A model generated the notes under the pieces. The model saw only the letters and a program-made list of their open reading frames with translations. It made no database searches and had not been told where the DNA came from. The position numbers and the translations under genes were made by a program. From positions 144,012 to 208,011 of the forward strand of contig JALBYF010000032.1 in assembly GCA_023212725.1 (NCBI GenBank): DNA of 64,000 bases, given 5' to 3'. Origin of the DNA: Tranzscheliella williamsii. Its lineage: Eukaryota; Basidiomycota; Ustilaginomycetes; Ustilaginales; Ustilaginaceae. The first letter of the stretch is position 1. Each line of letters starts with the position of its first letter. Positions 3,652 through 22,017 of the stretch are shown piece by piece.

Positions 3652-4357
3652 CGTTAGTACAGATAATCACGCAGAAAGGTGGTGGTGTAGAGAGACGCGG
3701 TCGCATAGACACGAATGACGGGTGTTGGTGCCGCAGCGGAGGTGGCTTTGAATCACGGGCAGGTGGTCAGCCACAAATGAGCTCGTGGGCCAGAACCACA
3801 CGAACCCACCTGACGTGGCACCTTGCAACCAAGGGTGGGGCTAGACTGAGAGAGTGTATCGAGGGGGGGCGGCAGAGCACGGCAAAGTCCCGGTATTCAG
3901 GTGAGGGGAGGGGAAGAGGGCTTAGGAGGTCTGGGGGTGCCTCTAACCTGTAGGGCATGAGATGCCCATCCTGCTGAATCCCCTCCCGCGATGGGTATCT
4001 GAGACTATCCCATCGCAATGTCTTGAGCTGGGTGAACCCTCCCTTGACGATGGGGTCGTCACCGAGTACAACGCATCCTCAGGCAAACAGAAGGTAGTGC
4101 CGGTAAGAGGCAAGCGTACCGCCGGCCGAACTTGAGCACGAACTTCAGGCGGTCGCCCGGGCGGTCGAGCGGCCAATGGACCCGGGAAAGGTGGTTGGAA
4201 ACAGGCAAAGCCTCCGACAGAGCGCATGGTACGGTCGGAGCTGTGACAAGATGGGTGCCAGCATGGCCAATGGGGACGCTCCCCGTGCTGCCGTCATGAT
4301 CCAAAGGTCGGTCTATTCCTCGCCAGTCGAGACGAGACGTGCGCTGATCCCAATACA

Positions 4358-4372
4358 GGGGTACAGCAGGTT
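4358..4372 (-). promoter_or_regulatory. Leader motif shared with copy B
   Basis: On the element strand AACCTGCTGTACCC occurs about 115 nt inside the 5' end. It is followed about 8 nt later by GGGATCAGC. Both blocks recur in the leader of copy B at 19824, although flanking leader sequence has largely diverged. It could be part of the internal promoter that LINEs need or an RNA-binding site; the function is inferred. Confidence 0.5.
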
Positions 4373-4501
4373 GGTGAACGTCTCCATGCTGGCATCGGAG
4401 GGGAACCACCTGGATGACCTCCAGTGCTCAGCCGTTGCCGTCGTCGTCATCGACGCCGTCCGATACTGGCGATTTGGTCGTCATCATCAGTGTAATTCGC
4501 C

Positions 4502-4573
4502 GCCCCCTTAGCTCAGTGGTAGAGCGTGTCACTAGTAATGACAAGGTCAGTCGTTCAAGTCGGCTAGGAGGCA
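4502..4573 (+). tRNA. tRNA-Thr (anticodon AGU), with one acceptor-stem mismatch
   Basis: This is a 72-nt cloverleaf without an intron. The acceptor stem pairs GCCCCCT with AGGAGGC, leaving a C-A mismatch at the fourth pair. The D arm contains TAGCTCAGTGGT (A box). The anticodon stem TGTCA/TGACA encloses the loop CTAGTAA with anticodon AGT. The T arm has GTTCAAGTC (B box). It differs from the second tRNA-Thr of this window (19652-19723) at two bases: the mismatching C in the acceptor stem and one T-loop base. The retrotransposon at 1-4488 ends 14 nt upstream and points away from it. Confidence 0.95.
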
Positions 4574-4580
4574 AACAGTA

Positions 4581-4588
4581 TTTTTTTT
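4581..4588 (+). terminator. RNA polymerase III terminator of tRNA-Thr
   Basis: A run of eight T begins 8 nt after the tRNA 3' end, the usual place and form of a strong Pol III stop. Confidence 0.85.
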
Positions 4589-5032
4589 CTTCCTCTTTGC
4601 TGACAGGTGATTGGTAGCGGGATGCGCAGTGCGAGGGCTGAAAATAGAAATGGACAGTTGCAGCGGTAAAGGGGGGGCAAAAGGACGCGTCTTTGGGGAG
4701 GCTAGGGCGCGAATAGAGACACAGAAAATGGCCGGCCGGAGCGGTAGGCGGAGTGGGGCAGGCGTATCGGTGTCGCGGGGTGCAGCTAGCGGGCGGCAAG
4801 CGCGGCAGGGGTGCGGGATGGCCAAGTCGTGCACGGCGGAGCTCCCGTGCTGGCGTGGTGCTGGGGAGCTGGGCGCTCGGGCCGTGAGCCGGCTAGTGCG
4901 GGTGCAGCTGCCCTAGCACGGCTCCCCGTCTCATACTGCCTACGGCGCAGCGCGCCAGCACAGCCGCATAGGCACACAGATCAGCACGCCAAAGGAAGTC
5001 TTTCGTGGTATTTACACTGGCGCCGCCTGCGC
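4589..5032. other. Intergenic region, no gene seen
   Basis: About 440 bp lie between the tRNA and the 3' end of the branching-enzyme gene. It is GC-rich and purine-rich, with no conserved reading frame or RNA gene recognised. It probably holds the 3' UTR of the branching enzyme. Confidence 0.6.
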
Positions 5033-7099
5033 TCAACCGACGCGGTGCAGGACCAGGGCGCTGCGGCTGGGCAAATAGAGCTGAACAAAGTTGCGGCGGC
5101 CGTTCCACTCCATGGCGGTGGTGAAGTACTCGGTGGCGTGGTCGACGCGGCCGTGGCCGCCGAGGTCGGTGGCATCGGTGTCGAGCAGGACGCGGTACTT
5201 GCCCGGCTCGTCGACGCCGATGCGGTAGTCGGTGAACGAGTTGGTGGCGTGGAAGTTAAAGACAAAGAGCAGGCCGGCGCGCTCGAACGCAACCACGCGG
5301 TCCGTGTCGTGCTTGAGCGAGATGTACGCCTGCGGCGCGGCCAGCCACCGCCCCACCTCCTCGGCGCGGTTCATCGCCGCGTCAAACGCGTACAGATACC
5401 GGTAGCGAAGCAGCGGATCGTCGACCAGGTTGAACTGCCGCCGCGCGTAGTGGAACGAGTCGCCGTTGCCGGCGCGCGGAAAGTCGAGCCACTCGGGATG
5501 GCCAAACTCGTTGCCGATAAAATTGAGGTATCCTTCGCCGCCTAGCGCGTGCGTGATGAGCCGGATCATCTTGTGGAACGCCAGACCGCGGTCGATCACC
5601 TGGGTGCGCTCCGAGAGGTCCGACATGTTGGTGTACATCTCCTTGTCCATCAGCCAGAAGGCGATCGTTTTGTCGCCCACCAGCGCCTGGTCGTGCGACT
5701 CGGCATAGGCGATCGACTTTTCCATGTGCCGCCGATTAGTCAGTGTAAAGCAGATGCTGCCAAAGTCCCACTCCTCGTCCGGTTTTTCCTTTAGCAGCTT
5801 GATCCACATGTCTGGCACCGCCATCGAAAGCCGATAGTCGAAGCCGACCCCGCCCTCGGCAACAGGCCGGCAGAGCGCGGGCATGCCCGAAACATCCTCG
5901 GCGATGGTGATGGCCTTTGGGTTGATATCGTGGATCAACTTGTTCGCCAGCATCAGGTAGCACACCGCCTCTACATCGACAGACGGACCAAAGTACTCGT
6001 GATATCCGCCGCTAAAGCCTGTACCGATGCCGTGGTGTGTATACAGCATAGAGGTGACGCCGTCGAAGCGGAAACCATCAAAGCCATACTCTTCCATCCA
6101 GAATAGACAGTTGCTGAGCAGGAAGCGCAAGACCTCGTGACTGCCATAGTTGAAGAGCCTCGAGTCCCACAATTCGTGCCGCCCCTTGGCCCCCTCGTGG
6201 AAGTAGAGATGGTCGGTGCCGTCAAACATGTTGAGGCCGTCGAGGACATTCTTGCAGGCGTGCGAGTGGACGATGTCGAGAAGAACAGTGATGCCCATGG
6301 AGTGGGCGACGTCGATCAGCTCCTTGAGATCTTCAGGATTACCGTATCGACTGCTGGCGGCAAAGAAATTGGTGACCTGGTAGCCAAAGGAGGCGTAATA
6401 GGCGTGTTCCTGGATGGCCATCAGCTGAATGGTGTTGTAGCCCAGCTCGCGGATCCGGGGCAGGACATTCTGGGTGAATTCCTTGAATTGGCCGACGCGA
6501 GGCTCTGGGGTTGCGATGCCGACATGGGCTTCGTACACCTTGATGTTGTCCGGCTGCGGGGGCTTGGCATGCTTGAACGTGTATCGCTGCGATGCAGGAG
6601 GATTCCAGAACCTTGCGTCGTACACCGGTGAGACGTTCAGATCCTGGGTGACGCGGAGGATCCAGGCAGGTAGCCTCTCGATCCTCTCGCCGGATGGCAA
6701 CACGAAAGAGATCTTGACCTTAGAGTCGTGGGGGATGGCGCACTTGCCCGCGACAGGAGGGATGGTGATGTGCCACTTGCCGAAGTTGTCCTTCTGCATT
6801 TTGTGAGACTCCCGATTCCAGCCGTTGAATTCGCCGATGAGCGAAGCTTCGACGGGATTGGGCGCCCATTCGGTGTAGGTGACGGTCTGGTCCTTGGGAT
6901 CGATCTGGAAGCCCATATGTTGAAATGAGCGGGCAAACTTCTGGAGCCCGCCTTCGGTAGTTTCAATCTGCTTGAGCCATCGCGTGTAGAGGGAATACCT
7001 GTCGCGAAGCGCCGGTGCAAAGGGCTCCAGCCACGGATCGAGGGCGATGACGCCGGTGCCGTCACTGGCCTGCGAGTAGTCGGTCGAGGCGGCAGCCAT
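5033..7099 (-). CDS. GLC3: 1,4-alpha-glucan (glycogen) branching enzyme
   Basis: This 688-residue, intronless protein is normal in length for fungal and animal branching enzymes. It cuts alpha-1,4 chains of glycogen and re-attaches them as alpha-1,6 branches in the cytosol. An N-terminal CBM48-like domain spans about 70-120 ([20 protein letters not shown]). The GH13 barrel shows all four family regions: DIVHSH (275-280), GFRFDGVTS with nucleophile D346, TIAEDVSG with acid/base E401, and AESHDQ with D470. A C-terminal beta domain closes the protein. The start is the ATG at 7099; the N-terminus aligns with family members without extension. With the maltose permease and maltase at the other end of the window it belongs to carbohydrate metabolism, but it is not adjacent to them. 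Confidence 0.96.
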
Positions 7100-8562
7100 C
7101 TTCGCAACGTGGGGGGGAAGGCGAAGAGCAGTTCAGAAGCTTGGCACTAATGGTTAAATATCGGTGCGTTTCGGCAGAAAAGAGGCACAGATGGTGGTCG
7201 TCGGAAGGGGAGATGCTGATGGCGCCTTGATGGCTACGTTGGCGAGTGGCGGTGGGCGGCAAGATCGAGGAGCGCTGGACGGATACGTTAAGTGTAGGCT
7301 TGGTCAGTGCAGCGTGGAGACGAAGTGGAGAGAGTCACCGTGGCGCATTTCGAATTCGAATTTGTGCGTTCACGGCGTGGGCCCCGCAAATCGATTAGAT
7401 AGCTGCTCTGTTGAAGAAGCGGGCATGACAGCGACGCAGCCTTGGAGATTCCACTATGACTGCATGCTGTGAATTTGAGCTGCGCGCGCCTTTGCCCTGA
7501 TGACGGGCTTGTTTCGAGCCAGCGCCATGCCCAAACACTCAGTCTGGCGATATCGGCGAGAAGCACCAAGGTGGCAAGACGCAGTCAGTGTCCATGTACG
7601 GAGCGACGCACTATGATTAAGGCTTCTGCATACGGAAGAGAGCTTGGCAGCCCACATGGACCGTGCATGCCCGTTGTGGATATCACCCAACGTCACCGCT
7701 CACGCAGACGAGCGTCATGGCTGCAGGTAAAATCGCAATTTTCGCCCAAGCTTTAACGCCTCCCGCGTGGCCGTAATGCGAATCGAAATTTTGTTGGCAG
7801 TCTCACTATAGGACCCGTCCTGAGCCCGGACATGCTGGCATCACAGTGGGAAGCGGGGAAATTGCAGGTGCGAGCGAGCGACAAATGAAGGAAGTATGCA
7901 TGTAGCGGTAATGTGGATGGTGCCCTGAACCAAGCATTCGAGATGCACGCAGTGCGGTAATGTGAACCGTCACCCTAAGGCCGTGGAGAGAAAGAGAGAC
8001 GAGGAGCGAAAGCTTGCAGTGGTCGAGGCAGCGCAAGGGCGAAAGTGTGGCCGCAGCCGTTGCAGCTCCGAACCACATTGGCCAACCAACGACGACGACG
8101 ACGAAGGAAAGCGCCCAGAGGTTGGCCTTGGCTGGACAGGTATAAAGGGCAAACAATACTGAAGCAGTGGCCATACCAAGAGGGTTCCAGTAAAACAAAA
8201 AAAGAAGAAAAAGTAGTGGTGACCGGTATAGGCAGCGCGAGAAGCACCTTTTGACGAGAGCCTAAGCAACACGATAGCGGTGACTGACGGAAGGCCAGAT
8301 TCGCACCCTATTGGCCTGTAGTGTGACGTGCGCGTCGACTGCGTGGCCTTTGTGGTGGGGCAAGGCGAATGGCTCGAAGGCTTTCGTTGTGGAGCGAAAC
8401 GAGCTGTACGCTTGGAATCCCTCTTCCATGCTGGACCCTACTGTCCGATTTCTTCACCCAAGGGCGGGATGATAGCATCAGGCTGATCTCTGCCAACTGC
8501 TTGGCCCTGGACGTCCCTACGTCGAGAAGGGGAGCTCCCAGAGGAGGTACAGAAGGGGCGCT
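7100..8562. other. Intergenic region upstream of the branching enzyme
   Basis: This 1.46 kb stretch holds the promoter and 5' UTR of the branching enzyme and the 3' UTR of the G-alpha gene, both on the minus strand. Open frames here are short, overlap on both strands and resemble no family. A TATAAAG string at about 8142 on the plus strand has no gene to serve. I see no RNA gene. Confidence 0.55.
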
Positions 8563-9627
8563 CTATAAGATACCGCTGTCCTTGAGCGCGTTTGTCAGGA
8601 TGGTTTCCTTGACTGCTGCAAAGACGAGACGGATGTTGGAAGTATCGGTCGCCTGCGTCAAATGCGGATAGATGCTGAGACGAGCGCGATTGGTCTGTGT
8701 GAATCGCCAAAGGATGTACTTTGCCGCCTTGTTGATATCTGGCCCACCGCTGTATTCTGGAAAGTATTTCGACAGGGGCTGCTTGGGTATCTTTTGCTTG
8801 AAGATGTCGATCTTATTCAAAAACAGAATCACCGACGTGCGCAAGAACCAACGGCTGTTGACCACCGACTCGAACAGTACGAGCGACTCGGCCATGCGGT
8901 TCTGGCCGCTCTCTTCCAACAGCACCTGGTCGTATTCGCTAAGGGCCACGCAAAAGATGATCGACGTAACCGCTTCGAAGCAGTGGATCCACTTTTTGCG
9001 TTCTGACCTTTGCCCCCCCACGTCGAACAGATGGATGGATAGCTGGCCCATGTTGAACCGAGTTTCGCTGATGCCCGTGGTTTTGGAGCGCGCTCTTAGC
9101 ACGTCGTTTTCGTCGGGGATGTAGTCTGGTTGCCCTATGCGGTGGACGTGATCGAAAAAGTAAGCGGCGCTGTCCATCAGGTAGAACTCGCTGCTGCGTT
9201 CCATGATCGCTGGAATGATGGGATCCTTCCACAGAGAATCGACTCTCTTTGCCATGGAATGTTCTAGCGTCGCTCCCGGATCGGCGTCAACACGATACTG
9301 CAGAATGGCATCGACGTTTTCACGATTCTCTGGCATCTCTGGTTCCATCTTGAACTTGCGTAACGCCAATACAATGGCCTGTGCCGAGTCGACCAGATTC
9401 TTTATCACCGTGAGCCGATAGAGCATCAATTCATCTTTGGAGTAGCCATTTTGATGGATGATCTTCATCTGCTTGACCACCGTGGACTTGCCGGACTCAC
9501 CCGAGCCTAAAAGGAGGATCTTGCATTCTTTCCTGAACTTGCGGCTGTCTTCCTCGATCTGTTTGTCGATGGCTACACTCCTTTCCTTGGCCTCCCTCTG
9601 ATCTGTCGATGAGAAACAGTTGCCCAT
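8563..9627 (-). CDS. gpa3: Heterotrimeric G protein alpha subunit, Gpa3 type
   Basis: This 354-residue GTPase couples a membrane receptor to cAMP and pheromone signalling in smut fungi. It begins MGNCFSS: Gly2 and Cys4 fit N-myristoylation and palmitoylation at the plasma membrane, which fixes the start at 9627; codons upstream are in frame but lack an ATG. Nucleotide-binding motifs are GSGESGKST (41-49), RSKTTG (switch I, 180-185), DVGGQ (202-206, catalytic Q206), NKID (271-274) and TQAT (324-327). The C-terminus KDSGIL lacks the cysteine four from the end found in Gi-type subunits and fits fungal group III. In Ustilago maydis the activating change of Gpa3 is at Q206, matching the numbering here. 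Assignment to Gpa3 rather than another group III member rests on these points. Confidence 0.9.
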
Positions 9628-12313
9628 CTTGGCGAGGAAAACAAGCAGGATCGACGAGCTAGCGGCAAATCTGTTTGGCTCGCCGATCACGCCAGAGTCG
9701 AGTTAGACCGAAGCGTAGTCGTTAGCAAAAATTTTTGAGAGCGAAAGGCTGTGAGGTGCGTGTCAAGGGCAGGACAACGCAAAGGAACCGCCGCAGCCGG
9801 ACTTGCTTGGATGACAATGACGAAGGGAGGATGCGCAAGGCGCTGCGATGGCGCCAATGAAGCTGCGAGAGAGGAGTGGAATTGAACAATAAGAGCCCAA
9901 GCACAAGCTCGGTCTCGACCCGACAACGTGACCTCGATGCGAAACAGCTACCGGCCTTCGGTATAAAAGCTTATGAATGGCGGGCCGAAGATAGATAGGA
10001 ACGTGTCGGAGGGGCGATAGCCAGTAGCAGATGAATGAGCTGGAGCGGAAGGCACACCAGTGCGCGATAGGTGCTGATCAGCGGGACAAGGGGCCAGCAC
10101 GTTGGGCCAACGTCCCGTCACTGCCGGCTTGCGGCTGTTTCAGCCTAAGCTGCGTATAGTGCCACGATAACACTCTCAGGAGTGTGCTGGCTACAAATCT
10201 CTTTGCGGACCTCGCCGATCAGGATAAGGAGTGTGACAGTGTCGAGATTCGGTTGTGAAAACCGATGTAGGTGTTCGCAGGAGCACGCTGTTGCGAACAA
10301 GGTTGAATCAGGTCGGCCGCAGCTGGGTGAGTGGGCGGTGATAGGCTGGGTTGGAGCAAGGACAAAGAGGAATGGGCGGCGTGGGTAGGGTATGCGCAAC
10401 CGATGCGGGCGTCAGAACGGTTGGGGAGCGTCGCCGGCGGTGCTGCAGTAGTCGCACAACGATGCGGTAGATGCGCGATGAGATGAGTTCTCGGAGCAAA
10501 GGCCGGACCGGATGCAGCAGCAGGGCCAAGCAGGAAGAGCGGCAGATCGTGGGGAGGTGAATGGCAAGAAGGAGTAGTGAACGGGAGTAGCATGCGAAGA
10601 CACGAGGGAGAGACACCCAACCAAGACGAGGAGGCGAAGGGTGGAAGCGGCAGCAAGGGAAAGCAGAACGTTGAGCGGAGCCGAGACGGAATCGAGAATG
10701 AATGGGGGGAGAATGGCGGATGATGAATATAAGACGGGGCAGCAGAAGGTAGTACACACACACGCATCCACAAGTCCGTCAGACACAGCGTATTACAGTA
10801 TGTACAACAGGCTTAAGTGACAAGCTAGAACAGTCAAGTAGTACACACAGCTAGTAGTGAATACTACGTACAAGCTCTGAATCTATTAATCGGTCTTGTT
10901 CAGGCGAAGATCTCGCGTTACTCATAACTGTACTGAGTACGTTGTCGGTTTGGATTAGACAGGAAATAGCGCACTTCCTGTGCGTCTGGCATGGTGAAGC
11001 TTATTTCAGAGTGCTATAATGCTTCCGCTTGCAGGAAAATACAAATGCAGGGCGCCCATCACTATGAAAACCGCCAAATGCTGGGCTATCGTGAATGTGT
11101 TCGCGGCGTGCAGCGGTCGCGTTTCTGGTTTCTCGCTCTCCTATCCCCATATTGGTCGGAGGCAGGGGTACAGGCTAAGCACCGCACGACCATCAACCGA
11201 ATTTATACTAGGATGCAGCGCCAGCACCTGCAGCATCGTTCGATCTATAGCTTCGAGCCAAATCTACTTAGCGTCGCGGCAGGCGCATGGGTCCGCAGAG
11301 ACGAGGCTCGGGTTCGGGCTCGGGGTCGCTTGTCTGTGGGAGCCTTGGTTGCCGCGTCTGCTTGCTGTGCGTACGCTCGCGGTCACGGTCGCGGTCGCGC
11401 TTGATGAAACACAACTCCGGATCTAGTACGGTGATTGTTCGCAATTCCGACTGCGTTCTTCCCAATTCCGACCTTCGGCTCAAAGTCAAGTGCCGTATCT
11501 CTGCGCTCGTATGTAGACAATTCAGACCGACACCACACATGCGACGGGGGTGGTCATCGTTTGTAGGGGTAGGTTTCTGCGCAAATGACGGAAGCGGCAC
11601 TCGACAAACTATTAGGCGGCTTTGTAAACGTGGGAACGTGACAACGACGCTGCCGTGGTGGTAAATGCGTGTAGCGAGTCCCGCCCGCAGGTAAGCTGGA
11701 ACCAGCTCTGATGTCACGGCGGAAACGGCCAGCTCGGCATCCATGGCAGTCGCCGTGGGCAGACGGGTCGGCCTATGCAGGTACCAGGATGAAGCCATGT
11801 AAACCTCCTCGCAGCCATGAGTCTTCAGCCCACCGGCGCCTTCAACAAGATAGCCAGCCAGACTCGGCTCGAACGCGCGGAGTGTCAAGCGGAGTTCTCG
11901 GAAAGGATAGATTATCGAGCCTTCAGCCAAGATTAGAATTATTCTACGATGGCAACATCGCTCCGCCTGAGACTGTAACTGTGACCGTGACTGGGTTTGG
12001 AGAGCAAAAGCCGAAGCGTATGGCCAAGCACGTCTGTACTCTTGGCCGGAAAATAATCTCGATGGCTCTCTTTGTTCCTGACGCGAGCGCAGGCGCATCG
12101 TCTCGAGCGGATGCACAGTGGCGTCTTCATTACGGAAGGGCAACATCCGCATGCTGCTTGCTAGTCCTTGTACATCTCCCTGACCTGCATCGCACATGTA
12201 GCCCAAGCAATGCCATCCATTCGCCATTAACGGCCTGGTCTGCATCCGAGCGATTCCAAGCGCGGTGGCGTGGAGGTAAGCAGTCGAGCAAGCCGTCGAT
12301 ATCGCATCGGCCC
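9628..12313. other. Long intergenic region upstream of the G-alpha gene
   Basis: These 2.7 kb lie between the G-alpha start and the 3' end of the WDR59-like gene. From about 10240 to 10760 the minus strand is strongly pyrimidine-rich, so all three minus frames stay open by composition; this resembles a long 5' UTR or promoter rather than protein. A longer open frame at 11268-12245 (minus) and one at 11711-12787 (plus) look non-coding (see rejected items). A degenerate GACTGT repeat lies near 11968. No RNA gene is recognised. Confidence 0.5.
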
Positions 12314-15300
12314 TTATGTCTCTTGGAAATGCACTCGTTCCTGCCCCGGTGCACTTGCGGGCAAGTCGCGTCGTGCAGCATCGTTAGTAAGACGATCGTC
12401 GTCGCCGTGGCCCTGGCTGTCGTGCCCGTCTGTGGCGGGGTCGACAAACTGGTAGATCGTGACAAAGTTCCTTGCTCTTTTTTGGTGCTCCCTCAACCGA
12501 TTCAGAGCCACGACGGCCGCCGGAGGAGGCAGTGCTCCTCGCAGGTCTGCATGATGCAGGATATTCGCCCATCGCTCCTCGTCTTCCGAGCCGATGGCTT
12601 TGCTCCCATGAGGCCGCCCATGGCCGGGAGTAGACGCGCCGCTGCCGGAATAGAAGGGGGGCTGAGGCCGTCTCTTGAGGGTGTCGCCCTTGCCAGCATT
12701 GAGTCCCGTAGGATCCGGGGGTTCGATGTCGCCAAACACGTCGAAAAAGTCCTTTTTCCGCAGCAGCCGACGCGCAAAGAAGTCTGAGCTCATCAGCTGC
12801 ACCACGTCAGAGTCTCGGACGCCGTAGCCTGCCGACGACCCTTTCTCCCTTCCGTCCGGGGTCTGTGAGGATCGTGCCAACGAGGCCATCGCGTTGGATA
12901 ACGCCGTGTACGATCGCAAGAAACGCGACTCCTCCTCGTCCTTGGCAACTTCGTCCTTCCCTTTCAGCGAGGCTTCCTGTCCGGCCGCCTCAACTTCCTC
13001 GCCATGGCGGTTCTCGTTGATGCTGGATACGAACCGAGCTCGCGATTGAGACCGCGACCGAGCCGAGGCAGCGCCGCTTGGTCGAGCTACCGACGACGAG
13101 CGCGACATGTGCTGCAGACGAGGCGAATCGATCGATGGCGGACTACCGCCAAAGACCACCAATTCGTTGTTGGGCCCAAAACTGGCTCCCATTCGTCTCG
13201 GCTCCATCTTCGTACTGACTGTGGCTTTCGGACGGGCAGTGTGCTTGGAACGGAGTGCGGCCAGCTCCAATCCCGAGTCGCTGCTGCTGGAAGAGACAGA
13301 GCCGCCAGTCCGACTGGTCGTGCCGTCGGCCTCCTCGTGTTCGTCTCCGTCGCCTTCGTCCAGTGACTTGATCGGTTCGCCGATCAAGAAGCGGGCGCAC
13401 AGCTCGAGACATGGCCTATTAAACTGTGCCGCCTTGGACGAGAGGCGCAATAGCCCGCGCAGCAGATAGGCCCGTGTCTTGAGGCTGATGTTGGCGCTCT
13501 TCTCCAGGTCGAATTTGGGCGGCTCTCGAGGATAGCTAGACGGAAACTTGAGCTTGATGCGAAGGAAGGCGGGCTCGTGGTCAGCCCACGGTCCGTACAG
13601 GGTAAGGACACACATACTTCGCGCCAGCTCGATCTTTTCAAATACGATTCGAGGCAGCTTCCGGTTAATGCTGACGATCTCGTCGCCCAGCCTTTGCGCC
13701 GTTAGCTCTGGCTCGATATCGGTGTCGTCTTCTGTCGAGAGGCCGCCCCGGTTGAAGTGGGTGCTCAGTTTAGAGAGATTGCCTCCTTCGAGACCGCGGT
13801 TGTGCCCCGCTCCAGCTGTCTGCGCGTCATCCGAGGTATGCGTGTCACGGCTCGGGTCCTTCTCCATTCTGACGTTAGCTATCCATTCCAGCGGATCCAC
13901 CACGGGCCCAGCAAGCCGACCACGGTCAAGGCGCATCGCAGAACCCACCACCTTGCCTGAGCCCGCTTTCCTTGTGATTGCCTTACTCTCGTCACCCTTC
14001 TTCCTCTGCCTGGCGTTTTTGAGCTTGTTCTTCTGGCCGTTGCGTCGCTCTAGGTCCGACCGTTCTTCCTGAATTGCAAGCGGTCGCCTAGGAGGCTGTT
14101 GCTGCTGCGGACGCGACCTGCCGATCATCGGGCCGCCCCTTACCGCCTGGGGAACCTTGAAGGAAGAGGTGCCGTCGCTGTGTTGCGATGCAGCACCACC
14201 TTTCGAGCTGTGCTGGGAAGTGGCGAGGCGCGAAGCCGAGTCGCGATCAGCATGTTTCGGCAGCGACCGTCCCAGAGCCTGGTTCGAGATCGGCGCAGGC
14301 GCCTCCGCCCTGCCCCAGGACCTGGGAAAGCCGTCCACGGGACTGCGTGATAGGGGCTCGAGACCAGCGCCAAGGTTACCGTGACTGGAACTGTGGTTGA
14401 GGCCTCTCTCGGCCAGGCGGGAGCCGCTGCCAGCAACGCCGCCTCCGAAGCTCGTACTGAATGCTGTCAGCGGGCTTGTCCTTCCATCGCGCGAAATATT
14501 CGGGAAGCCAGAGGCGGACGAACTGTAAGGTGATGTACCCGGAAGTTTCACCCCGCTACCCTTGCCACTCAACAGCGACCGTGTCACCCTGTCGGGCGGA
14601 AGGACTGACGAGGCTGTGATGTTGCTGGCAGAATCGCGGCTCTTGAGGCCCATCTCACTATCGGCTGCCTGGGGCATGGGCGGCGGGTCACGGTAGGACA
14701 TGTCCGGAGCATTGGCTCGCGTCAAGAGGACCCGTATAGGCGCATTGGGCTTGTGGCCGACCTTGCGCATCTGGTCCTCGGTGACAGGCCACAACCGAAG
14801 CGTCTGATCCTTGGACCATGTTATCAGCTGGAACTGACGGTCGTCATGATCCCTGTCCTGGCCGCCCTTGGTCCTGAAAAGGTACTCCTTGACGATATCC
14901 GTGTGGCCTTCAAACGTGGCTTGCGGCCCGTCTGGCTTATCCTTGGCCCACATGCTCAGTGTTGAGTCGCCTCGCTGGGGCAGAGTCATGACGCCGTTGC
15001 CGAAGGGAAGGTGACGGGCTCGCCACACGGGCGTCTTGGTCTCGATCAGGGACTCTGCCTCGGTGATGAGTTCTCTAGCCCCGATGGCCGCTTGGGACGA
15101 GTCGGAGGACAGATTCCAAAACTTCACTGTCCTGTCCAGCGAGCAGGTGACGAGGCGATCCAGTCCCAGACTGGTGTCTCGGCTCCAATCAATGCCATAA
15201 ATCTTGCTTTCATGCGCCTCGATCGTAGCTAACGGCAGAGAGCCCTTTCTGTCGTCCCAGATCAAGACCTTGTTGTCACAGGTAGAAGCCAGTCGATGTT

Positions 15301-16264
15301 CGCTAGCCCGGTTGAACTTGACCTGCGTCACAGCCGCATTCCAAGCGGAGTAGCCCTGGGCCGGCTTGCGTCGCCCACTGCCATCCGAGGTTCCGCTCAT
15401 CCGTAAATCCCAGACCCAAGTCCATGTGTCAATGGAGCTAGAGGCGACGACCTCGGGGTGAAAAGGCGACCAGTTGATGTCGGTGATGGCACGGGTGTGC
15501 GCATGAAGGACGTGCTCGATCGCTGACGATCTCGGCGGTGCCACCATAAATTGGGAAGGCAGCGTCATGGGTGTCTGTGGATAAGGCGAGCCCGAGAAGT
15601 TGTGTCCGAACGCTGCGTTGGTTCCAACGGTGGCGCCGGATTGTAAGCTGTTGTATACGCCATGATAGGCGCTGTTTCGATGGGCGCCAAATGGCGCGTT
15701 GGAGGAGATGACGGGACTCGAGTTGCTGAGGATCGAGCCTCTGTGTAGGAGCCTCGATACAGCGGGCGCTGCCCTTGGATCGCCCGGACGGTCGAGATTC
15801 CAGATGAGAAGCTTCTGATTGGATGTGCTTGCCACCCAATTGCTGCGCGCTGGATGAGGGGACCACTGGATGTCCACAGCTTCCCAAGTTGTCATATGGG
15901 CAAGGAAGCGTGGCGGCGCGAAGGGGTCTTCCAAATCGATGATAAAAAGCCCTTTCCTGGCGGCCAAAACGACATCTCTATTGGCCGGGCTGATTGACAT
16001 GGAGCCTACAGGTTCCATGAAGGAGATCTCACACGATCGGTAAAAGGTGTTTGACGGATGCTTCTGGGACACAGGTTCTTTTGAGGGAGCCTTGCCGATG
16101 GAGATGGGCTCGGACGCAGCGGCATTTGAAGCGCTGCCCGATAGGGCTTGCTGCGCATCTAACCCATCCTGGCCGGCGGGTGGAAGACCAGGCGCTGCAC
16201 CAGCCGCGCCTGCCGAGATCTCTGTGGACGGAGCTGGCACATCAGTTTCCGGTTCTGGCAGCAT
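12314..16264 (-). CDS. WD40-RWD protein, WDR59/Mtc5 (SEACAT/GATOR2) type, no RING seen
   Basis: This 1316-residue protein starts at ATG 16264 (the ten codons before it are open but lack an ATG). Residues about 80-480 form a beta-propeller with clear WD repeats (HTRAITDINWSP...WTWVWDLR; LASTCDNKVLIWDD; LVTCSLDRTVKFWNL). A low-complexity middle follows, then an RWD-like domain at about 830-960 (IVFEKIELARS, FLRIKLKFPSSYPREPPKF). This order is typical of WDR59/Mtc5, a scaffold of the vacuolar/lysosomal complex that relays amino-acid status to TORC1. Family members normally end in a C-terminal zinc RING, and none is found here: the frame ends VHFQET. A TTACTAAC branch-site-like string just before the stop leaves open a missed terminal exon. 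It is divergent with PXR1, 590 bp apart. Confidence 0.8.
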   Translation of the reverse strand: MLPEPETDVPAPSTEISAGAAGAAPGLPPAGQDGLDAQQALSGSASNAAASEPISIGKAPSKEPVSQKHPSNTFYRSCEISFMEPVGSMSISPANRDVVLAARKGLFIIDLEDPFAPPRFLAHMTTWEAVDIQWSPHPARSNWVASTSNQKLLIWNLDRPGDPRAAPAVSRLLHRGSILSNSSPVISSNAPFGAHRNSAYHGVYNSLQSGATVGTNAAFGHNFSGSPYPQTPMTLPSQFMVAPPRSSAIEHVLHAHTRAITDINWSPFHPEVVASSSIDTWTWVWDLRMSGTSDGSGRRKPAQGYSAWNAAVTQVKFNRASEHRLASTCDNKVLIWDDRKGSLPLATIEAHESKIYGIDWSRDTSLGLDRLVTCSLDRTVKFWNLSSDSSQAAIGARELITEAESLIETKTPVWRARHLPFGNGVMTLPQRGDSTLSMWAKDKPDGPQATFEGHTDIVKEYLFRTKGGQDRDHDDRQFQLITWSKDQTLRLWPVTEDQMRKVGHKPNAPIRVLLTRANAPDMSYRDPPPMPQAADSEMGLKSRDSASNITASSVLPPDRVTRSLLSGKGSGVKLPGTSPYSSSASGFPNISRDGRTSPLTAFSTSFGGGVAGSGSRLAERGLNHSSSHGNLGAGLEPLSRSPVDGFPRSWGRAEAPAPISNQALGRSLPKHADRDSASRLATSQHSSKGGAASQHSDGTSSFKVPQAVRGGPMIGRSRPQQQQPPRRPLAIQEERSDLERRNGQKNKLKNARQRKKGDESKAITRKAGSGKVVGSAMRLDRGRLAGPVVDPLEWIANVRMEKDPSRDTHTSDDAQTAGAGHNRGLEGGNLSKLSTHFNRGGLSTEDDTDIEPELTAQRLGDEIVSINRKLPRIVFEKIELARSMCVLTLYGPWADHEPAFLRIKLKFPSSYPREPPKFDLEKSANISLKTRAYLLRGLLRLSSKAAQFNRPCLELCARFLIGEPIKSLDEGDGDEHEEADGTTSRTGGSVSSSSSDSGLELAALRSKHTARPKATVSTKMEPRRMGASFGPNNELVVFGGSPPSIDSPRLQHMSRSSSVARPSGAASARSRSQSRARFVSSINENRHGEEVEAAGQEASLKGKDEVAKDEEESRFLRSYTALSNAMASLARSSQTPDGREKGSSAGYGVRDSDVVQLMSSDFFARRLLRKKDFFDVFGDIEPPDPTGLNAGKGDTLKRRPQPPFYSGSGASTPGHGRPHGSKAIGSEDEERWANILHHADLRGALPPPAAVVALNRLREHQKRARNFVTIYQFVDPATDGHDSQGHGDDDRLTNDAARRDLPASAPGQERVHFQET

Positions 16265-16854
16265 GGCTTGGCAGTTCCAATTTGCAAGAGCCAAGTGGAT
16301 GCGGTCGGAGGGGATACAGGGCCGGCAGAGGGAGAAAGAGCGATTGATATCACCGTGTCCTTATCATTCTTTTCAATGTTGACCCAGAGCCGCTGAAGTG
16401 CGTTGACTGCGTAGATGCGAGCAGCTCAACTCCTGCCACTTGATCAGAGCATGCCTGCAGGGCGGAGCGACGTCAGGCCAGAGGTGGTGATGCCGTACAA
16501 GATACCTGCTGGTGGTCACAGAGTCTTCAATATAGCTGCATCGAAGAGCAATAGTTGCAGTGTGGGATGTCTGCATCTGCCGTGCCGGCCAATCTTAGCC
16601 ACCCCGATCCTGCAGACACCAAGTTTAACACATCGGGATGTGTCTTCACTACCGAGATCCGGAGACAGGACTCACACCAGAAAGCGAGAATTGTACCAAA
16701 ATGGGGAAATTTTTTGGCGAACGGCTGAATGGATTGGGAAAAGAAGGGTAAGTTCGTACATGCTGTTCGCGATAAGCTCCGTTCTGTGCCTCTCGCTTTC
16801 GCTCCTTCCTAGCTGTCAACCTCGGAAGCCTCTCGCTGCTCCGAGACATATACA
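16265..16854. promoter_or_regulatory. Shared divergent promoter region (WDR59-like / PXR1)
   Basis: This 590-bp interval separates two genes transcribed in opposite directions and must hold both promoters. I see no clear TATA box or repeated operator. Confidence 0.6.
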
Positions 16855-18258
16855 ATGGGGCTGTCTGGGCCAAAACAGAAGCAGCGGCTGGTTGGCTCTG
16901 CGTCGACCCGAAACACAGCATGGCTCAACGATGCGTCTGCGCCGGGACAGAGGATGCTTGCCCAGATGGGCTGGGCCGCCGGACAAAGCCTAGGGTCTAC
17001 GATGCCGGGGCTCACCGAGAATCTCAAAGTAGCGTACAAAATGGACAACAAGGGAATCGGCGCTCAGAGGCATGAGCGAGAGGCCCGCGCTAGCGGCAAG
17101 GATGTCTGGGTAGGTGGTGGAGGAGATCTGGGCAGCCTCTTCGACCGGTTGAACGCTGCCAACGCCGTCACCGCCTCGTCCTCGGCTGCACCCTCACCTA
17201 CCGAGGAGGGATCTTCTAGCGGCTATGAAAAGAAATCATTCAAAAAGGAGAAAGCAGCAAGCCACAAAGACCAGGAGAGCCAAAAGCGATCCAAAAAGAA
17301 GCGTAAATTAGAGAAAGTCGGCGAAGAGACCTCACCGAGGTCAGATAGCGAAGAGACAGATGACGAGGCAGATGGTAAGGGCAAACCAAAACGCACAAGC
17401 AAAAGCAAATCCTCGAAAAAGGAGGAAAAGCAGCAAAAGAAACGGAAAAAAGCTGAAGTCGTATCTGCCATTGTCAAGGCCGATGCAGAACTATTAGGGG
17501 ATGAGGCAGCCGTCAAGGAAATCAAGAAGGATGTGGTGCAGGGCCGGCCTGTCCGACTCGCACACCGGGCAAAGTTTCTAAGGGCCAAACGGATGGTCTC
17601 AGCTTCGGACCTGGCCAGCGTCAACGAGATTCTGGGCATCGCATCCACACCATCATCTCCCGCCCCTGGCACTCCCAACGCAGGCTCTGGGAGCGCGACG
17701 CCGTTACCTCCGCCTAAGATCTACCCGGGACCCGGTGGCGCCGAGATCCAGCTGATGGATGTGGATCGACGGCTCGTGCAGGAGGGAACGGACGATTCGG
17801 ATGTCAGCTCGTCGGCTTCTTCATCGGCCGAGGAGGACAGCCGACAAAAGAAAAAAGAAAGGAGTAAGAAGGAAACGAAGCGCAAATCCTCATCCGACCA
17901 TGACGAGACTGTCACCAAGGAGAAGAGGGCAAAGAAGGAAAAGAAGGAGAAGAAGGAGAAGAAGGGCAAAAAGGAGAAGAAGGGCAGGAAGGAGAAGAGC
18001 AAGAAAAAGGAGGAGACAGATCCTCGTACTGGAACGGAAGTGGCGGCAGCCTCTAGAGGCTCTCAAGTACTGGTCGGGGCCGAGAAGCTAGCAGCTGACG
18101 AGAGGGAGAAAGCCACGCAGATTGGGATGAACGCGCAGGGTCTCTCCGTGTTTGAGTACCTCAACAGAAAGCTGATGCTGCGCAAAGCACAGATTGCTCG
18201 TCAGAAGAAGGCCGAGCACGAGGCCATTTTCAGCCGTGCCGCCACGGTCCGAGCCTAG
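16855..18258 (+). CDS. PXR1: G-patch protein PXR1/GNO1 (PinX1 homologue)
   Basis: This 467-residue, intronless gene starts at ATG 16855. The N-terminus MGLSGPKQKQRL followed by TRNTAWLND is the family signature. A G-patch domain at about 25-77 (MLAQMGWAAGQSLG...NLKVAYKMDNKGIGA) activates the DEAH helicase Prp43 during rRNA and snoRNA processing in yeast; the mammalian homologue also binds telomerase. The rest is low-complexity: acidic serine-rich patches and long lysine/glutamate runs (KKEKKEKKEKKGKK at about 360), typical of nucleolar PXR1 tails. An ordered middle block at about 200-265 (VSAIVKADAELLGDE...FLRAKRMVSASD) and the C-terminal segment (GMNAQGLSVFEYLNRKLMLR) are also conserved in style. 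Nuclear, nucleolar location is expected. Confidence 0.93.
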   Translation: MGLSGPKQKQRLVGSASTRNTAWLNDASAPGQRMLAQMGWAAGQSLGSTMPGLTENLKVAYKMDNKGIGAQRHEREARASGKDVWVGGGGDLGSLFDRLNAANAVTASSSAAPSPTEEGSSSGYEKKSFKKEKAASHKDQESQKRSKKKRKLEKVGEETSPRSDSEETDDEADGKGKPKRTSKSKSSKKEEKQQKKRKKAEVVSAIVKADAELLGDEAAVKEIKKDVVQGRPVRLAHRAKFLRAKRMVSASDLASVNEILGIASTPSSPAPGTPNAGSGSATPLPPPKIYPGPGGAEIQLMDVDRRLVQEGTDDSDVSSSASSSAEEDSRQKKKERSKKETKRKSSSDHDETVTKEKRAKKEKKEKKEKKGKKEKKGRKEKSKKKEETDPRTGTEVAAASRGSQVLVGAEKLAADEREKATQIGMNAQGLSVFEYLNRKLMLRKAQIARQKKAEHEAIFSRAATVRA

Positions 18259-18641
18259 CAAGCATGGTCGCCATTACGGTATTACCCCCGCTAGCCTGGC
18301 GTCCGTACGCCAACCTCTGCCTCGCCCGGACGTCATCCCTCGCATTGCATTTTTATCTTCCTCTAGCGTACATACCAACGCAGCATACCTCTATCGCAGA
18401 ATACTACTTATCTATCCAAGGATCAGGACTCAGCAGTGAAGAGTGCCTTTCAGCAGTGATGGCGGAGTGGATTTACCCACTGGCGACTTAACAGGCAGCG
18501 ATGAAGTTGCGAGTAGATATGTGGAGGTAGCGTATCTGAGGACTGTGACTGTGACTTGAGCCGTCGGACGCTTCTTGCTTATGGCCATCGCTCATCGTCT
18601 TCTCGCCGACTCGAGGTGTGCGCGCGAATTGTGGATCGACA
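18259..18641. other. Intergenic region, no gene seen
   Basis: This 383-bp gap lies between PXR1 and the next gene in the same direction. It contains a short GACTGT repeat (18537-18555) of the same kind as those near 11968 and 44066 (reverse strand). Nothing else stands out. Confidence 0.55.
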
Positions 18642-19235
18642 ATGCCGGCGCGAGAAGAGCCAGTGGCTAACCACGGAGGTGGTGTGTCTCCGGAGGGTAG
18701 GGGGGTGGCGGCAACACCGCGGGTGATGCTTGGACGGAATGCAGGGAAGCTGGATGAGGCGGAGCATCCTGCGCTGCCGATTGCAGAGGTAGGTGGGGCG
18801 AACCGGGCTGCACAGGTGCGCGGGATCCTGTTTGGGCTCGGGGGTGGCGTTGTGTCTGGTAAGTGGATGCGGCGAGCAGTGCTGGCCGGCCGGGGCTGAC
18901 GTGTTTCGCGCCGTACGGCAGCCTTTATCTCGCGGCGTGCGCTGGGCTTGGGCAAGAATGCGAGCTACCTGTCGGGGCTATTGGCAGGCACTGGCGTCGC
19001 GTACATCACGGCGCGCCAGCAGCTCGAACGCAACCTCGCCCACGTCGAGGCCGCTGAAAAACGCCTCCGCTCCCCCCTCCCACCCCGCCCCCTCGTCCCC
19101 GCTCAGGACAACACCACGGACCTCGACATGCTCAAGTACGACCTCCGCGCTGCCGAAAACTCCCACCACGAAGCCGGCGTCGCCGGCCTGCACGATTTGC
19201 AGGACATGTACGCCTCCACGCGCGGCGACCACTGA
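18642..19235 (+). CDS. Small two-exon protein with glycine-rich hydrophobic segments, function unknown
   Basis: The exons are 18642-18858 and 18922-19235, with a 63-nt intron (GTAAGT donor, ACGGCAG acceptor, phase 1), giving 176 residues. After splicing, two hydrophobic glycine-rich stretches sit close together: GILFGLGGGVVSAF (about 61-74) and YLSGLLAGTGVAYI (about 86-99). They are joined by a basic loop (SRRALGLGKN) and followed by a charged helical region (RQQLERNLAHVEAAEKRL) and a polar tail. This resembles a small hairpin membrane protein, for example of mitochondria, but I do not recognise the family. Intron removal joins two otherwise unrelated frames into one coherent protein, which supports the model. 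Confidence 0.7.
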
Positions 19236-19651
19236 CTCCAACACGCAGCCGTCCTCCGCTCCGCGCACTTCAAACACTCGCCATCGCTGCCATCAGTCCG
19301 CTGCCCTCACCAGCGATCCGCCTGCTCGGCTGTATAGAGCTGTACATCCTGTCCAGTACATCACTACCCTTGCAAGACAGCAGTCCTCACCAAGCCAAGC
19401 AAAAACCGCGTGACGCTCCTCCCACATAATTATTGTTGCGGCAATGCAAATCTCAAGATAATCAGTCGAAATGGAATCCGGAAATTCACATCCTGGAAAG
19501 AATTGCCGCCCCCACCAGCCCGGCGAGAATTCCGAGCAGATTCAAACACGAAAACCCCAAAAACGAAGGAACCGCTCGAGTAGAAAAAGTTTGCTCACGA
19601 CGAAGCGGCAAAAGGTTCTCGCCGAGAGGTGGTGATCCGGGCAGCAGTAGA
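19236..19651. other. Intergenic region between small gene and tRNA-Thr
   Basis: This is about 415 bp. The part next to the tRNA is its 3' flank: minus-strand T runs occur at 19610-19613 (39 nt after the tRNA) and 19584-19588, the likely Pol III stops. No coding signal is seen. Confidence 0.55.
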
Positions 19652-19723
19652 TGCCTCCTAGCCGATTTGAACGACTGACCTTGTCATTACTAGTGACACG
19701 CTCTACCACTGAGCTAAGGAGGC
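19652..19723 (-). tRNA. tRNA-Thr (anticodon AGU), fully paired copy
   Basis: This is a 72-nt intronless cloverleaf on the minus strand. The acceptor stem GCCTCCT/AGGAGGC pairs completely. The anticodon loop CTAGTAA lies in the TGTCA/TGACA stem, and the T loop contains GTTCAAATC. It is the consensus form of the tRNA at 4502. The first good T run lies about 39 nt downstream, so termination may be less sharp than in the other copy. A retrotransposon starts about 10 nt upstream of its 5' end and reads away from it. Confidence 0.96.
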
Positions 19724-19823
19724 TCGATGAAGGATGGTGGCGACCACCTGCTGTCAGAATCTCAGCGTCGTGGAAGCTGTCCTCTCCAACATCAGTCATA
19801 CGTTCAGGCTGGGGACGTGTCAG

Positions 19824-19837
19824 AACCTGCTGTACCC
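19824..19837 (+). promoter_or_regulatory. Leader motif shared with copy A
   Basis: AACCTGCTGTACCC followed by GGGATCAGC is identical to the blocks in the leader of copy A. It lies 101 nt from the tRNA 5' end here and about 130 nt in copy A. Surrounding leader sequence is poorly conserved, so these blocks may be functional (internal promoter or RNA recognition). Confidence 0.5.
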
Positions 19838-20719
19838 TGCCCGGTGCGGGATCAGCCCACAGTCTTGCCCAGAAGGGCAAGGAGTATGCTCTTGGTTACA
19901 ACGACGACGACTGGAAGAAGGCGCTTTCCCAATGCGAACAGGCGAAGCGTCGACCATCCAGCGCCGATACCCTCCTTGCTGACACCACTGTTTCTGGACA
20001 TTGCGGTGTGGACCTATATCGATTTGGTGCGATCAACTTCTTGACAGGCTACAAAGACCTGCGTTGACATGTTTTTGCCGCCCCAACCAACTACAATGGT
20101 CTTGACCTGTGAAGCACCCACCACTGCTTCCATCCTTGTGATGCTCCCGCTCTCCCCCAGCAGGGCGAGATCCTGGCTTGAGATGGCATATCAGCTTCCC
20201 GGCTGATAAACATTGCCATGATAACGAGGCGATCGCTGCGGCAATCATCCACGCCGTTGCTACATGCGACCTGACCGTTCTACTGTCGATGCATCGTATG
20301 TTCAAACCGTGTGGGTCTTCTTCGTCGGAGAAAGACCCTATGCCAAACCCGTCTGTATGTCTACACCCAAGAGGAGCGTACCGTTCTGGCAGGGGATTCC
20401 GAGGGGAGGAAAAAAGAACCAACCCCCCCGCCACGCAACCCCCTTAGGTACCCCAAATTTCTGGCCAACCCACGAAGAGGCCCAAGCCCAAACCCCCCCC
20501 CCCCTATCCAACGGTGTGCCTCCCCCTTTCCACCTCTTAAGTCTCCTGTGCCAGCGCAGCCTGCGACAAGCCAGCGCACGCACCCTCCGGACAGCTCATT
20601 GCCCCATACCAGTCATGGGGAGCGCCAACCCAAATCTGGACTGTCCCGACCGTCTCCAACACCAGCTCGAACTCTTGCAACCACACCCACACAGTCCAAA
20701 ACACCCCTTCCTCCTCAAT

Positions 20720-21784
20720 ATGCCCAACGACCACCCGCCCCCTGTTGATGATGTGAACCTGGCCCAGGCGAAGAGTCTTCTACATACGACGGAGATATCA
20801 ACCTGGCTGCCAGTGGCCCATCGTCTGCAAAGGGATGACTCGAGTCAGGGCCCCCTTATCCCGTTCGCTGAACTTCCCCCTCACCAACTACAACATAACT
20901 CCTTTGCTGCTAAGATTGAACCTGGTACGGTGAGATACGCAATCCCCCCCACACTAAAAATACAAACCCAGAGCGAGAAAGCCAGTGCTGGCTACACCAT
21001 CATCTTACAACTCCAAGCTCGCTACCATGACTATGAGACCGGTGCTGTCCACTTCTTTAAGAAGAATAAGCAGACACTTGTAGATATAGAATGGACGGCG
21101 AAGAGCGAGTTTGACCCCTCTACGCCACTGAAGCTTGACGAGACTAACCTTGTCTTTGTAAACATGGCCTCCGCTATCAAACCCAACTGGCGTACTGTCA
21201 AGATCAGCGGCCTCCCAGCCGCAGTACGTACCAACCCGGGTCTAATGGCTGAGCGAGCCAATATGATACTCTACCCACATCAGATCCTCGACTTCTGGAC
21301 CACATACACCCGCTTCACCCACCAAGACGCCAGTCCCGTCGACTTCTGGAACGAAAACCTTTACATGCTTGTGGAACTCGACCTGTCGGCAGGAGACAGC
21401 TTTGGCTATAACCACCCCGCCGAGGTTGCCTCTATGCTCCCGGGATGGATAGCCTACGGCTCCACTGAATACCGCCTCGACTACCTTGACAGGTTCGACC
21501 ACTGCATGCACTGCAAAGCAAACGTCAGTTTTGAAGACCGTCACAAATACCAGGCTTGCACTGCGAGACTTTGCAGCTACTGCAACAAAGCTGGACATCC
21601 CCGCCGCTCATGCCCCGCCCTGAAAAAGGACAAGGCAGACAAGACCGCCACACTTGCCGCCGATGAAGACCTGGTACAAGGCTTCAATGACCTTGCTCGG
21701 GAAGTCTCATCCCGCCCTGCCAAACGCCAGCACGTCGACGACGTTGAAGACACCATGCGCGACGCTGGCCTTCAGTATAACTGA
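20720..21784 (+). CDS. LINE ORF1 protein (zinc-knuckle, nucleic-acid binding), copy B
   Basis: The frame is open from 20264, but the ATG at 20720 gives exactly 354 residues, the same as ORF1 of copy A. The upstream part is low-complexity proline-rich sequence with no match there, so 20720 is preferred. Conserved blocks include PLIPFAELPPHQL, FFKKNKQTLVDIEW, YPHQILDFWTTY and MLPGWIAYGS. Two C-terminal fingers are present: C-x2-C-x9-H-x4-C (CMHCKANV...DRHKYQAC) and CCHC (CSYCNKAGHPRRSC), followed by a lysine-rich region and RPAKRQ. The protein is expected to bind element RNA. It sits 292 nt upstream of ORF2 in the same direction. Confidence 0.88.
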   Translation: MPNDHPPPVDDVNLAQAKSLLHTTEISTWLPVAHRLQRDDSSQGPLIPFAELPPHQLQHNSFAAKIEPGTVRYAIPPTLKIQTQSEKASAGYTIILQLQARYHDYETGAVHFFKKNKQTLVDIEWTAKSEFDPSTPLKLDETNLVFVNMASAIKPNWRTVKISGLPAAVRTNPGLMAERANMILYPHQILDFWTTYTRFTHQDASPVDFWNENLYMLVELDLSAGDSFGYNHPAEVASMLPGWIAYGSTEYRLDYLDRFDHCMHCKANVSFEDRHKYQACTARLCSYCNKAGHPRRSCPALKKDKADKTATLAADEDLVQGFNDLAREVSSRPAKRQHVDDVEDTMRDAGLQYN

Positions 21785-22017
21785 AAGTCCACCCACCACC
21801 ACCGTACCCTGCCAAAGTTTCTCCCCAGCTCCTTCACCTGTCTGAACGTCAAATCGCTACTATACACTGTTTACGCCCACCCTCCTCCCTTGATTGCGAA
21901 TGTCTGTGCCTCTCTGTTGACCACAAAGACTAACGCATACGGTCCGTGCATCTACAGTGACCAAAAGACCTTGAGCCCCCCCCTGCCCCGTCCAGCCTAA
22001 TGACACCAACCCCCACT

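Follow-up and report, generated by a model that had tools for sequence, protein, structure and literature searches.

The window analysed here is a stretch of 64,000 nucleotides from the basidiomycete Tranzscheliella williamsii (positions 144012-208011 of contig C62, within an 18.18-Mb genome of 135 contigs), and this study concerns two long interspersed nuclear elements (LINEs) in it, named A and B, together with the tRNA genes at which they lie. ARAGORN, run on the window without introns, found exactly two tRNA genes, both for tRNA-Thr(AGT) and both at the positions given in a preliminary description of this DNA; the same two are among the 63 of 391 candidates that were scored in a genome-wide Rfam tRNA search. 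As that description had stated, a LINE is located on the 5' side of each gene: A and B each begin at the tRNA 5' end and point away from the tRNA, and their open reading frames (ORFs) are placed accordingly (Table 1). The two elements had been judged to be about half identical, and alignment agrees with this estimate (48.6% protein identity in ORF2 and 47.3% in ORF1); the arrangement therefore does not reflect a single duplicated block. A table in PMC5106213 gives 133 tRNA genes as the top value among six smut genomes. With 133 tRNA genes in 18.18 Mb, the probability that two independent element ends fall within 20 nt upstream of a tRNA gene by chance is p ~2e-8 with orientation uncounted, which confirms the earlier view that a double chance insertion is unlikely.

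Both an endonuclease of the apurinic/apyrimidinic (APE) type and a reverse transcriptase (RT) are encoded in ORF2 of B, as in L1-like LINEs. The Pfam matches of this protein are PF03372 (2.5e-9) and PF00078 (1.1e-18), and its best match by sequence in the PDB is the LINE-1 ORF2 protein. No long terminal repeats (LTRs) were seen, no systematic search for them having been made.

Table 1. Elements A and B, their target genes and their target-site duplications. Positions refer to the window unless a contig is named.
Feature	Position	Strand	Remarks
tRNA-Thr(AGT), target of A	4502..4573	+	ARAGORN, Rfam
Proximal copy of the A target-site duplication	4495..4506		12 bp, ATTCGCCGCCCC, tRNA -7..+5
Distal copy of the A target-site duplication	C62:142221-142232		Outside the window
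Element A	1..4494	-	5' end at 4494; runs off the window start; whole element ~6273 nt
Conserved 5' leader of family 1 in A	4310..4494	-	Like C, X, C103, C120 and C86
ORF1 of A	2587..3651	-	354 amino acids; zinc-knuckle-like Cys pattern; Pfam match below cut-off
ORF2 of A, open frame	1..2586	-	Endonuclease motifs and RT; 1417 amino acids in all, part in the window
tRNA-Thr(AGT), target of B	19652..19723	-	ARAGORN, Rfam
Proximal copy of the degenerate B target-site duplication	19719..19729		GAGGCTCGATG
Element B	19731..26236	+	~6506 nt; 5' end towards the tRNA 5' end; 5' limit +/- a few nt
ORF1 of B	20720..21784	+	From a methionine near the start of homology to other ORF1s (open frame from 20264)
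ORF2 of B	22077..26150	+	1357 amino acids; PF03372 endonuclease; PF00078 RT with YADN; C-terminal Cys/His motif
Distal copy of the degenerate B target-site duplication	26237..26248		GAGGCCACGATG

The preliminary description had proposed that copies be collected in the host genome and their distance and orientation to tRNA genes tabulated. We searched the genome with the leader of a third element, C on contig C134, with no tRNA sequence included in the query, and obtained seven copies including the query itself: A, B, C, X and three further copies that are named here after their contigs, C103, C120 and C86. Elements with this leader are referred to as family 1. Six of the seven precede a tRNA 5' end and share one orientation; X, the seventh, is stacked behind C at the same site. 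All copies (7/7, query included) thus keep to one place and one orientation at tRNA genes. The leader match of B comprises 64 bases at ~105 nt from the tRNA and that of C120 begins ~50 nt out, the remaining leader of these two copies having been joined by eye and by BLAST. Element X comes after the 3' end of C and before the contig end; it has its own leader and a piece of ORF1 that is 89% identical to ORF1 of C. The tandem junction consists of the C 3' end, then AAGGGGC, which repeats the start of the tRNA, and then the X leader. In C86 the contig stops inside the leader. Copies C103 and C120 measure 966 and 785 nt (A, 6273; B, 6506; C, 6493 nt), contain the leader, have no match to ORF1 or ORF2, and can be aligned with one another over 605 and 110 columns. 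They have the appearance of non-autonomous derivatives, and the search found no third short copy of this kind. Copies on C134, C86 and C120, as well as a relic on C85 (see below), are located at or within ~2 kb of contig ends, and the assembly may therefore underestimate the copy number.

The junctions indicate where these elements enter the tRNA gene. In A, element-specific sequence ends at position 4494, 7 nt from the tRNA, and all 12 bases of ATTCGCCGCCCC, which corresponds to tRNA positions -7 to +5, are present at both ends of the element; none of 15 decoy tRNA junctions is as good, the best reaching 5 bases. The insertion point thus lies inside the tRNA gene, between +5 and +6. It follows that the gaps of 14 nt (A) and 10 nt (B) that had been read by eye are somewhat too large, since element-specific sequence starts ~7 nt from the tRNA and the duplication extends 5 nt into it. 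The duplication is less clear in the other copies. At C/X 15 bases are duplicated (decoys at most 6, 0/15 as good) and at C120 six (decoys at most 5, 0/15 as good), while the exact match of 5 bases in B is equalled or exceeded by 2 of the 15 decoys and that of 4 bases in C103 by 11 of them. The best reading of these data is a duplication of approximately tRNA -7 to +5 that is well marked in A, has support in C/X and C120, and is degenerate in B and C103. The opposite ends are also alike: A, B and C share a 3'-terminal GCAATANRAATCA.., which is followed by a copy of the first five bases of the tRNA (slashes enclose these bases; A, ..TTTCA/GGGGC/GGCGAAT; B, ..TTTA/GAGGC/CACGATG; C, ..TTAA/GGGGC/GGTGAAT). 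By eye, similar junctions can be seen in C103 (..TTTT/GAAGC/GACGAAG) and C120 (..TTTT/GAGGC/AGGTTAG), the 3' ends of which align with each other.

The genes occupied by family 1 are three tRNA-Thr(AGT) genes and one gene each for Thr(TGT), Arg(CCT) and Lys(CTT). The canonical position of a tRNA intron is after position 37. The ARAGORN calls of Ala(TGC) for the C134 gene and Ser(CGA) for the C120 gene imply unusual intron positions and were rejected; by our reading of the arms these genes are Thr(TGT) and Arg(CCT), respectively, with an intron after position 37. With a tRNA-Thr(AGT) gene as query, three such genes were found in the genome and all are occupied. Six of the genes found begin with GCCNNYTTRGCTCAGTGG..., five of them with family 1. 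Exact matches to the pattern GCCNNYTTRGCTCAGTGGYAGAGCG number six in the genome, and 5/6 carry family 1; the pattern was drawn up with these six genes already in view, so this count means that the genome yielded no additional, empty gene of the kind and does not amount to an independent demonstration of preference. The sixth match is a Thr(CGT) gene on C45, with an ORF2 relic ~220-240 nt upstream on the strand of the tRNA. A tRNA-Val gene on C71, which differs from GCCNNYTTRGCTCAGTGGYAGAGCG at two positions, is without a family-1 leader. As a wider sample, 30 Rfam-derived loci with DNA were considered, from which 13 were dropped (12 on contig C3, which we read as mitochondrial from the AT-rich flanks of its tRNAs, and locus L040, which overlaps another); family 1 was present at 6 of the 17 retained loci and an ORF1-like frame at one (L037). 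Among the six, searches with ORF1 and ORF2 detect A, B and C only.

Based on these data, we consider it highly probable that A and B belong to a LINE family of this smut-like fungus that targets tRNA genes, has an APE-type endonuclease and inserts at +5/+6 with a duplication by which the tRNA is rebuilt. The earlier suggestion of a tRNA-targeting LINE family in a basidiomycete is thereby supported by the leader copies, with the correction that insertion takes place inside the gene. A different origin of the same association has to be weighed here, because half of the six occupied genes are tRNA-Thr(AGT) genes of nearly the same sequence, and in A, C and C103 the similarity of the leaders extends as far as the tRNA: the tRNA and the element might travel or duplicate together, or the tRNA might serve as the promoter of the element, in which case we would be looking at hitch-hiking and not at targeting. 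This is very unlikely, since a similar leader is carried by unlike tRNAs, some of them with introns (Thr-TGT, Arg-CCT, Lys-CTT), and all that precedes the X leader is 7 nt left from the start of the tRNA. Moreover, in the far flank of A the duplicated site is accompanied by a TATA-like word at the place expected for the native one, and the proteins of A and B are ~49% identical.

Relatives of these elements are also associated with tRNA genes. A search of the genome with ORF2 of B gave nine matches, namely to A, B, C (three pieces), D, E, the fragment on C45, and a distant LINE on C58; D (on C102) shows 37% and E (on C13) 28% identity to the query. A search with ORF1 recovered A, B, C, X, D and E and, weakly, one place each on C87 and C1. 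Scans for relatives in viral_contigs gave nothing. Elements A to E and the C45 relic all adjoin a tRNA gene (A to C within ~10 nt, D and the C45 relic at ~220-240 nt, E at ~30 nt), the genes beside D, E and the relic being ARAGORN finds outside the scored Rfam set. For five of five elements to lie within 500 nt of a tRNA gene by chance, p is ~3e-11. Element D is located upstream of a tRNA-Pro gene on the same strand; its ORF2 open frame ends ~235 nt before this gene, which keeps its adjoining TATA-like region. No convincing duplication was found at the boundaries of D, where comparison of 2.4 kb with 0.35 kb yielded three shared words of 9-11 nt. Element E is located downstream of a tRNA-Val gene on the same strand; by eye, its leader begins ~30 nt past the tRNA, beyond the T-run. 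Its 3' end carries an A15 tract, and the similarity between its flanks is imperfect (CCGGGT, TTTGCATG and ACCCC, by eye). After the A15 tract at this tRNA-Val gene (L049:500-1300 and 6500-7400, on C13) a second E-type leader is seen, so E-type elements apparently also stack.

The 18-Mb genome yielded few LINE copies, which would fit a scenario in which insertion is random and copies survive only beside tRNA genes because a compact genome tolerates them there. We find this hardly credible. Selection would scarcely place elements at six genes in one orientation and at almost one position, or stack two of them at a single site. Two other LINE lineages, on C58 and C70, persist with no tRNA gene in the 9.9 and 8.0 kb examined around them (~1.3-3.2 kb flanking the ORFs on either side).

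Insertion by family 1 also appears to alter the upstream region of the tRNA gene. A TATA-like word at -45 to -18 was seen in 16 of the 17 nuclear tRNA genes that lack family 1, whereas none of the six genes with family 1 shows one (Fisher 7e-5; such words occur in 5.7% of 27-nt background windows), the set of TATA-like words having been picked after the sequences had been viewed. In two of the four far flanks examined, those of A and C120, such a word still lies near the expected distance. Thus, the duplication appears to repair the tRNA, and the leader to replace the upstream promoter region.

A mechanism that would account for this arrangement starts with a nick by the endonuclease in the tRNA-sense strand between +5 and +6, mainly in genes starting GCCNNYTTRGCTCAG. 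The freed +5 end would then prime reverse transcription of the element RNA (target-primed reverse transcription), and cleavage of the second strand ~12 bp upstream, near -7, would generate the duplication of -7 to +5. The tRNA-side copy of the duplication would restore the tRNA 5' end, so that insertion into an essential gene is tolerated, and the native upstream TATA-like region would be shifted to the far side of the element. As the target site would stay usable, elements could stack; the short, ORF-less copies appear to make use of this machinery as well. With respect to the recognition step only, and compatibly with targeted insertion at +5/+6, the site might be found through the RNA polymerase III (Pol III) machinery, for example by contacts of ORF1 with TFIIIB or TFIIIC of the kind proposed for TRE5-A and Ty3, and not by an endonuclease that reads the tRNA sequence. 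For this there is a precedent in TRE5-A (PMC5391098); in addition, the Lys(CTT) gene is without the pattern, D and E are found at other positions beside other tRNAs, and the A box lies just inside the cut. On the other hand, family 1 is present at 5/6 genes of one 5' sequence and, among the other sampled nuclear tRNA genes, at the Lys gene only, which speaks for some reading of the sequence, albeit in a small sample and with a fitted pattern. We regard recognition via Pol III factors as a real possibility, if somewhat short of an even chance, and the two modes of recognition are not mutually exclusive.

The catalytic motif of these elements is unusual. Motif C of the RT reads YADN in all six of A, B, C and the database proteins P0001-P0003 (residues 691-694 of ORF2 in B), CADR in D and FADD in E, the relatives of which have FADD or YADD; the canonical F/YxDD active site is therefore absent from A to D. 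Among the 34 rows compared, HADN is found in one distant protein, P0023. The named homologues nearest to B ORF2, PSFLO_03970 of Pseudozyma flocculosa and UHOD_11946 and UDID_17379 of Ustilago spp., likewise have an RT with YADN. Among the literature matches listed, the word YADN did not occur. The endonuclease match of E is below the cut-off, and D has no Pfam endonuclease match but keeps the QEP, GDWN and SDH motifs. Pfam matches to RNase H are present in the C58 and C70 LINEs and were not obtained for ORF2 of B, D or E. In an RT tree of 34 rows, including 27 of the 74 proteins found and no TRE sequences, A to D and P0001-P0003 form one group (100/100), within which P0001 pairs with D (92/85), and E, P0011-P0017 and P0019 form another (100/100); the database proteins in these two groups are smut homologues. 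Both groups fall inside a group of 23 rows (99/99) that includes Tilletia proteins, with C58 and C70 outside.

Several observations weigh against the reading of family 1 as a targeted and possibly still active LINE family. Long exact duplications occur in A and C/X only, and that of C/X is not independent, the X leader being itself element sequence; the short matches in B and C103 are, as noted, within reach of the decoys. The likeness of the 3' ends of C103 and C120 to those of A, B and C was seen by eye, and the program gave no alignment of A with C103 in this part. Several different tRNAs are immediately preceded by ATTC or a word like it, which makes the element 5' end uncertain by up to 7 nt. 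The Lys(CTT) gene on C86 does not match GCCNNYTTRGCTCAGTGGYAGAGCG, so the target is not purely sequence-defined. The late choice of TATA-like words counts here as well, and the control LINEs checked number just two. A degenerate 3' part of an E-type ORF2 on C85 (L057:196-1497), found with the ORF2 of E, has as its nearest tRNA gene in the sequence examined a Ser(CGA) gene ~1.1 kb away, its 5' side being off the contig. As regards present activity, ORF2 of C is disrupted, no near-identical copies were seen in the genome, and YADN in place of YADD may mean weak or lost RT activity. The matching change in yeast Ty1, D211N, kept activity in vitro and abolished transposition (PMC2148107). We give about an even chance to the full compound statement that family 1 is a LINE with a YADN RT that cuts tRNA genes at +5/+6, rebuilds them via the duplication, occupies every Thr(AGT) gene (three) and Thr(TGT) gene (one) detected, and replaces the native promoter region with its leader.

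Several known retroelements can be compared with family 1. NeSL-type elements have a restriction-like endonuclease, and the NeSL and R2 types are defined by such an endonuclease after the RT and by the lack of an APE domain; the host of NeSL-1_TV is Trichomonas. Element B, with its N-terminal APE-type endonuclease, does not belong to these types. Like family 1, NeSL-1_TV, LIN15_SM and LIN25_SM, which are specific for tRNA-Pro, tRNA-Arg and tRNA-Glu genes, respectively (PMC4640811), and Dewa, a LINE in a tRNA-Leu spacer in fish (PMC3706591), are tied to particular tRNA genes or their surroundings. The likeness to Dictyostelium elements that the preliminary description had drawn holds for orientation, since the 5' end of TRE5-A always faces the tRNA 5' end (PMC5391098), and fails for distance, in which family 1 is nearer to NLTR-A. 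TRE5-A shares with family 1 two ORFs, an APE endonuclease, an RT, a C-terminal zinc-finger region, its orientation (PMC5391098, PMC5911963) and the capacity to stack at one gene (PMC5006619). It differs in its location ~47-50 bp upstream of the tRNA, its oligo(A)/poly(A) tail and its amoeba host (PMC5391098, PMC5911963), whereas family 1 reaches into the gene at +5/+6 and has a conserved tail that is not poly(A), ending in ..AATCAATT; family 1 thus departs from the TRE5 layout of ~50 bp upstream with a poly(A) tail. NLTR-A of D. purpureum inserts 2-6 bp upstream of the mature tRNA (PMC5006619) and is nearest in position; it has an RNase H domain after the RT, unlike B, D and E in a Pfam scan that covered these three ORF2 proteins and not those of A and C. 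Insertion inside the tRNA or rebuilding by duplication is not mentioned in the available text of PMC5006619. TRE3 resembles E in lying downstream of the tRNA on the same strand, and the A15 tract at the 3' end of E is a further point of likeness to TRE3; the distance is 40-150 bp in TRE3 (PMC5911963) as against ~30 nt, by eye, in E. Ty3, Tj1 and the Yarrowia elements Ylt1 and Tyl6 share with family 1 a fungal host and a position at or close to the Pol III start site of tRNA genes (PMC5911963); unlike family 1 they are LTR elements with an integrase and not LINEs.

Fungal tRNA-targeting elements named in PMC5911963 are LTR elements, and Pol III targeting is expected there among fungal retroelements including LINEs. 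tRNA-targeting LINEs have been described in social amoebae, planaria and fish (PMC5911963, PMC5006619, PMC4640811, PMC3706591). None from a fungus appeared among the literature matches listed (titles and beginnings of abstracts, with subscription journals and preprints outside the scope), and none is described in the available text of PMC5911963, PMC5006619, PMC7175516, PMC5106213, PMC3706591, PMC4640811, PMC2148107 or PMC5391098. Family 1 would be a new fungal form of tRNA-targeted LINE, probably convergent with TRE and NLTR-A of Dictyostelium.

Some further features were recorded. Ordinary host genes are located between A and B at 5033-7099, 8563-9690, 12314-16294 and 16855-18258; the products include an alpha-amylase-type (branching-enzyme-like) protein, a G-protein alpha subunit, a WD40 protein and a G-patch protein. 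A genome search for RVT_1 gave 16 places, five of which are A to E and two the LINEs on C58 and C70; the places on C87 and C116 have a LINE-type endonuclease, those on C31, C84 and C67 an integrase in the same open frame, and those on C61, C56, C60 and C106 are unclassified. The weak ORF1 match on C87 (102196-102918, 26%) lies in an open frame of 563 amino acids, and a LINE-type RT is found at 119698 of this contig. The ORF1-like frame at L037 (L037:2123-3103, C1:387876-388856) comprises 327 amino acids, is open at the end of the sequence examined, and resembles ORF1 of the E family (29% over 313 amino acids, 5.5e-21). It starts ~520 nt upstream of a tRNA-Ala gene and points away from it, with a 20-nt tandem repeat of 5.9 copies in between. 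The RVT_1 search gave no match on C1, and the frame is either a relic or a domesticated ORF1.

If this interpretation is true, tRNA genes have been reached as a landing site apparently independently, by insertion inside the gene that is mended by the target-site duplication, and several layouts exist within one set of related elements. It becomes testable whether an APE endonuclease reads the tRNA sequence or bound Pol III factors, and how essential tRNA genes are transcribed after their TATA region has been displaced. An RT lineage that naturally has no second catalytic aspartate is of biochemical interest. Finally, the host would make essential Thr tRNAs from genes in which a retrotransposon leader stands in place of the native upstream promoter region.

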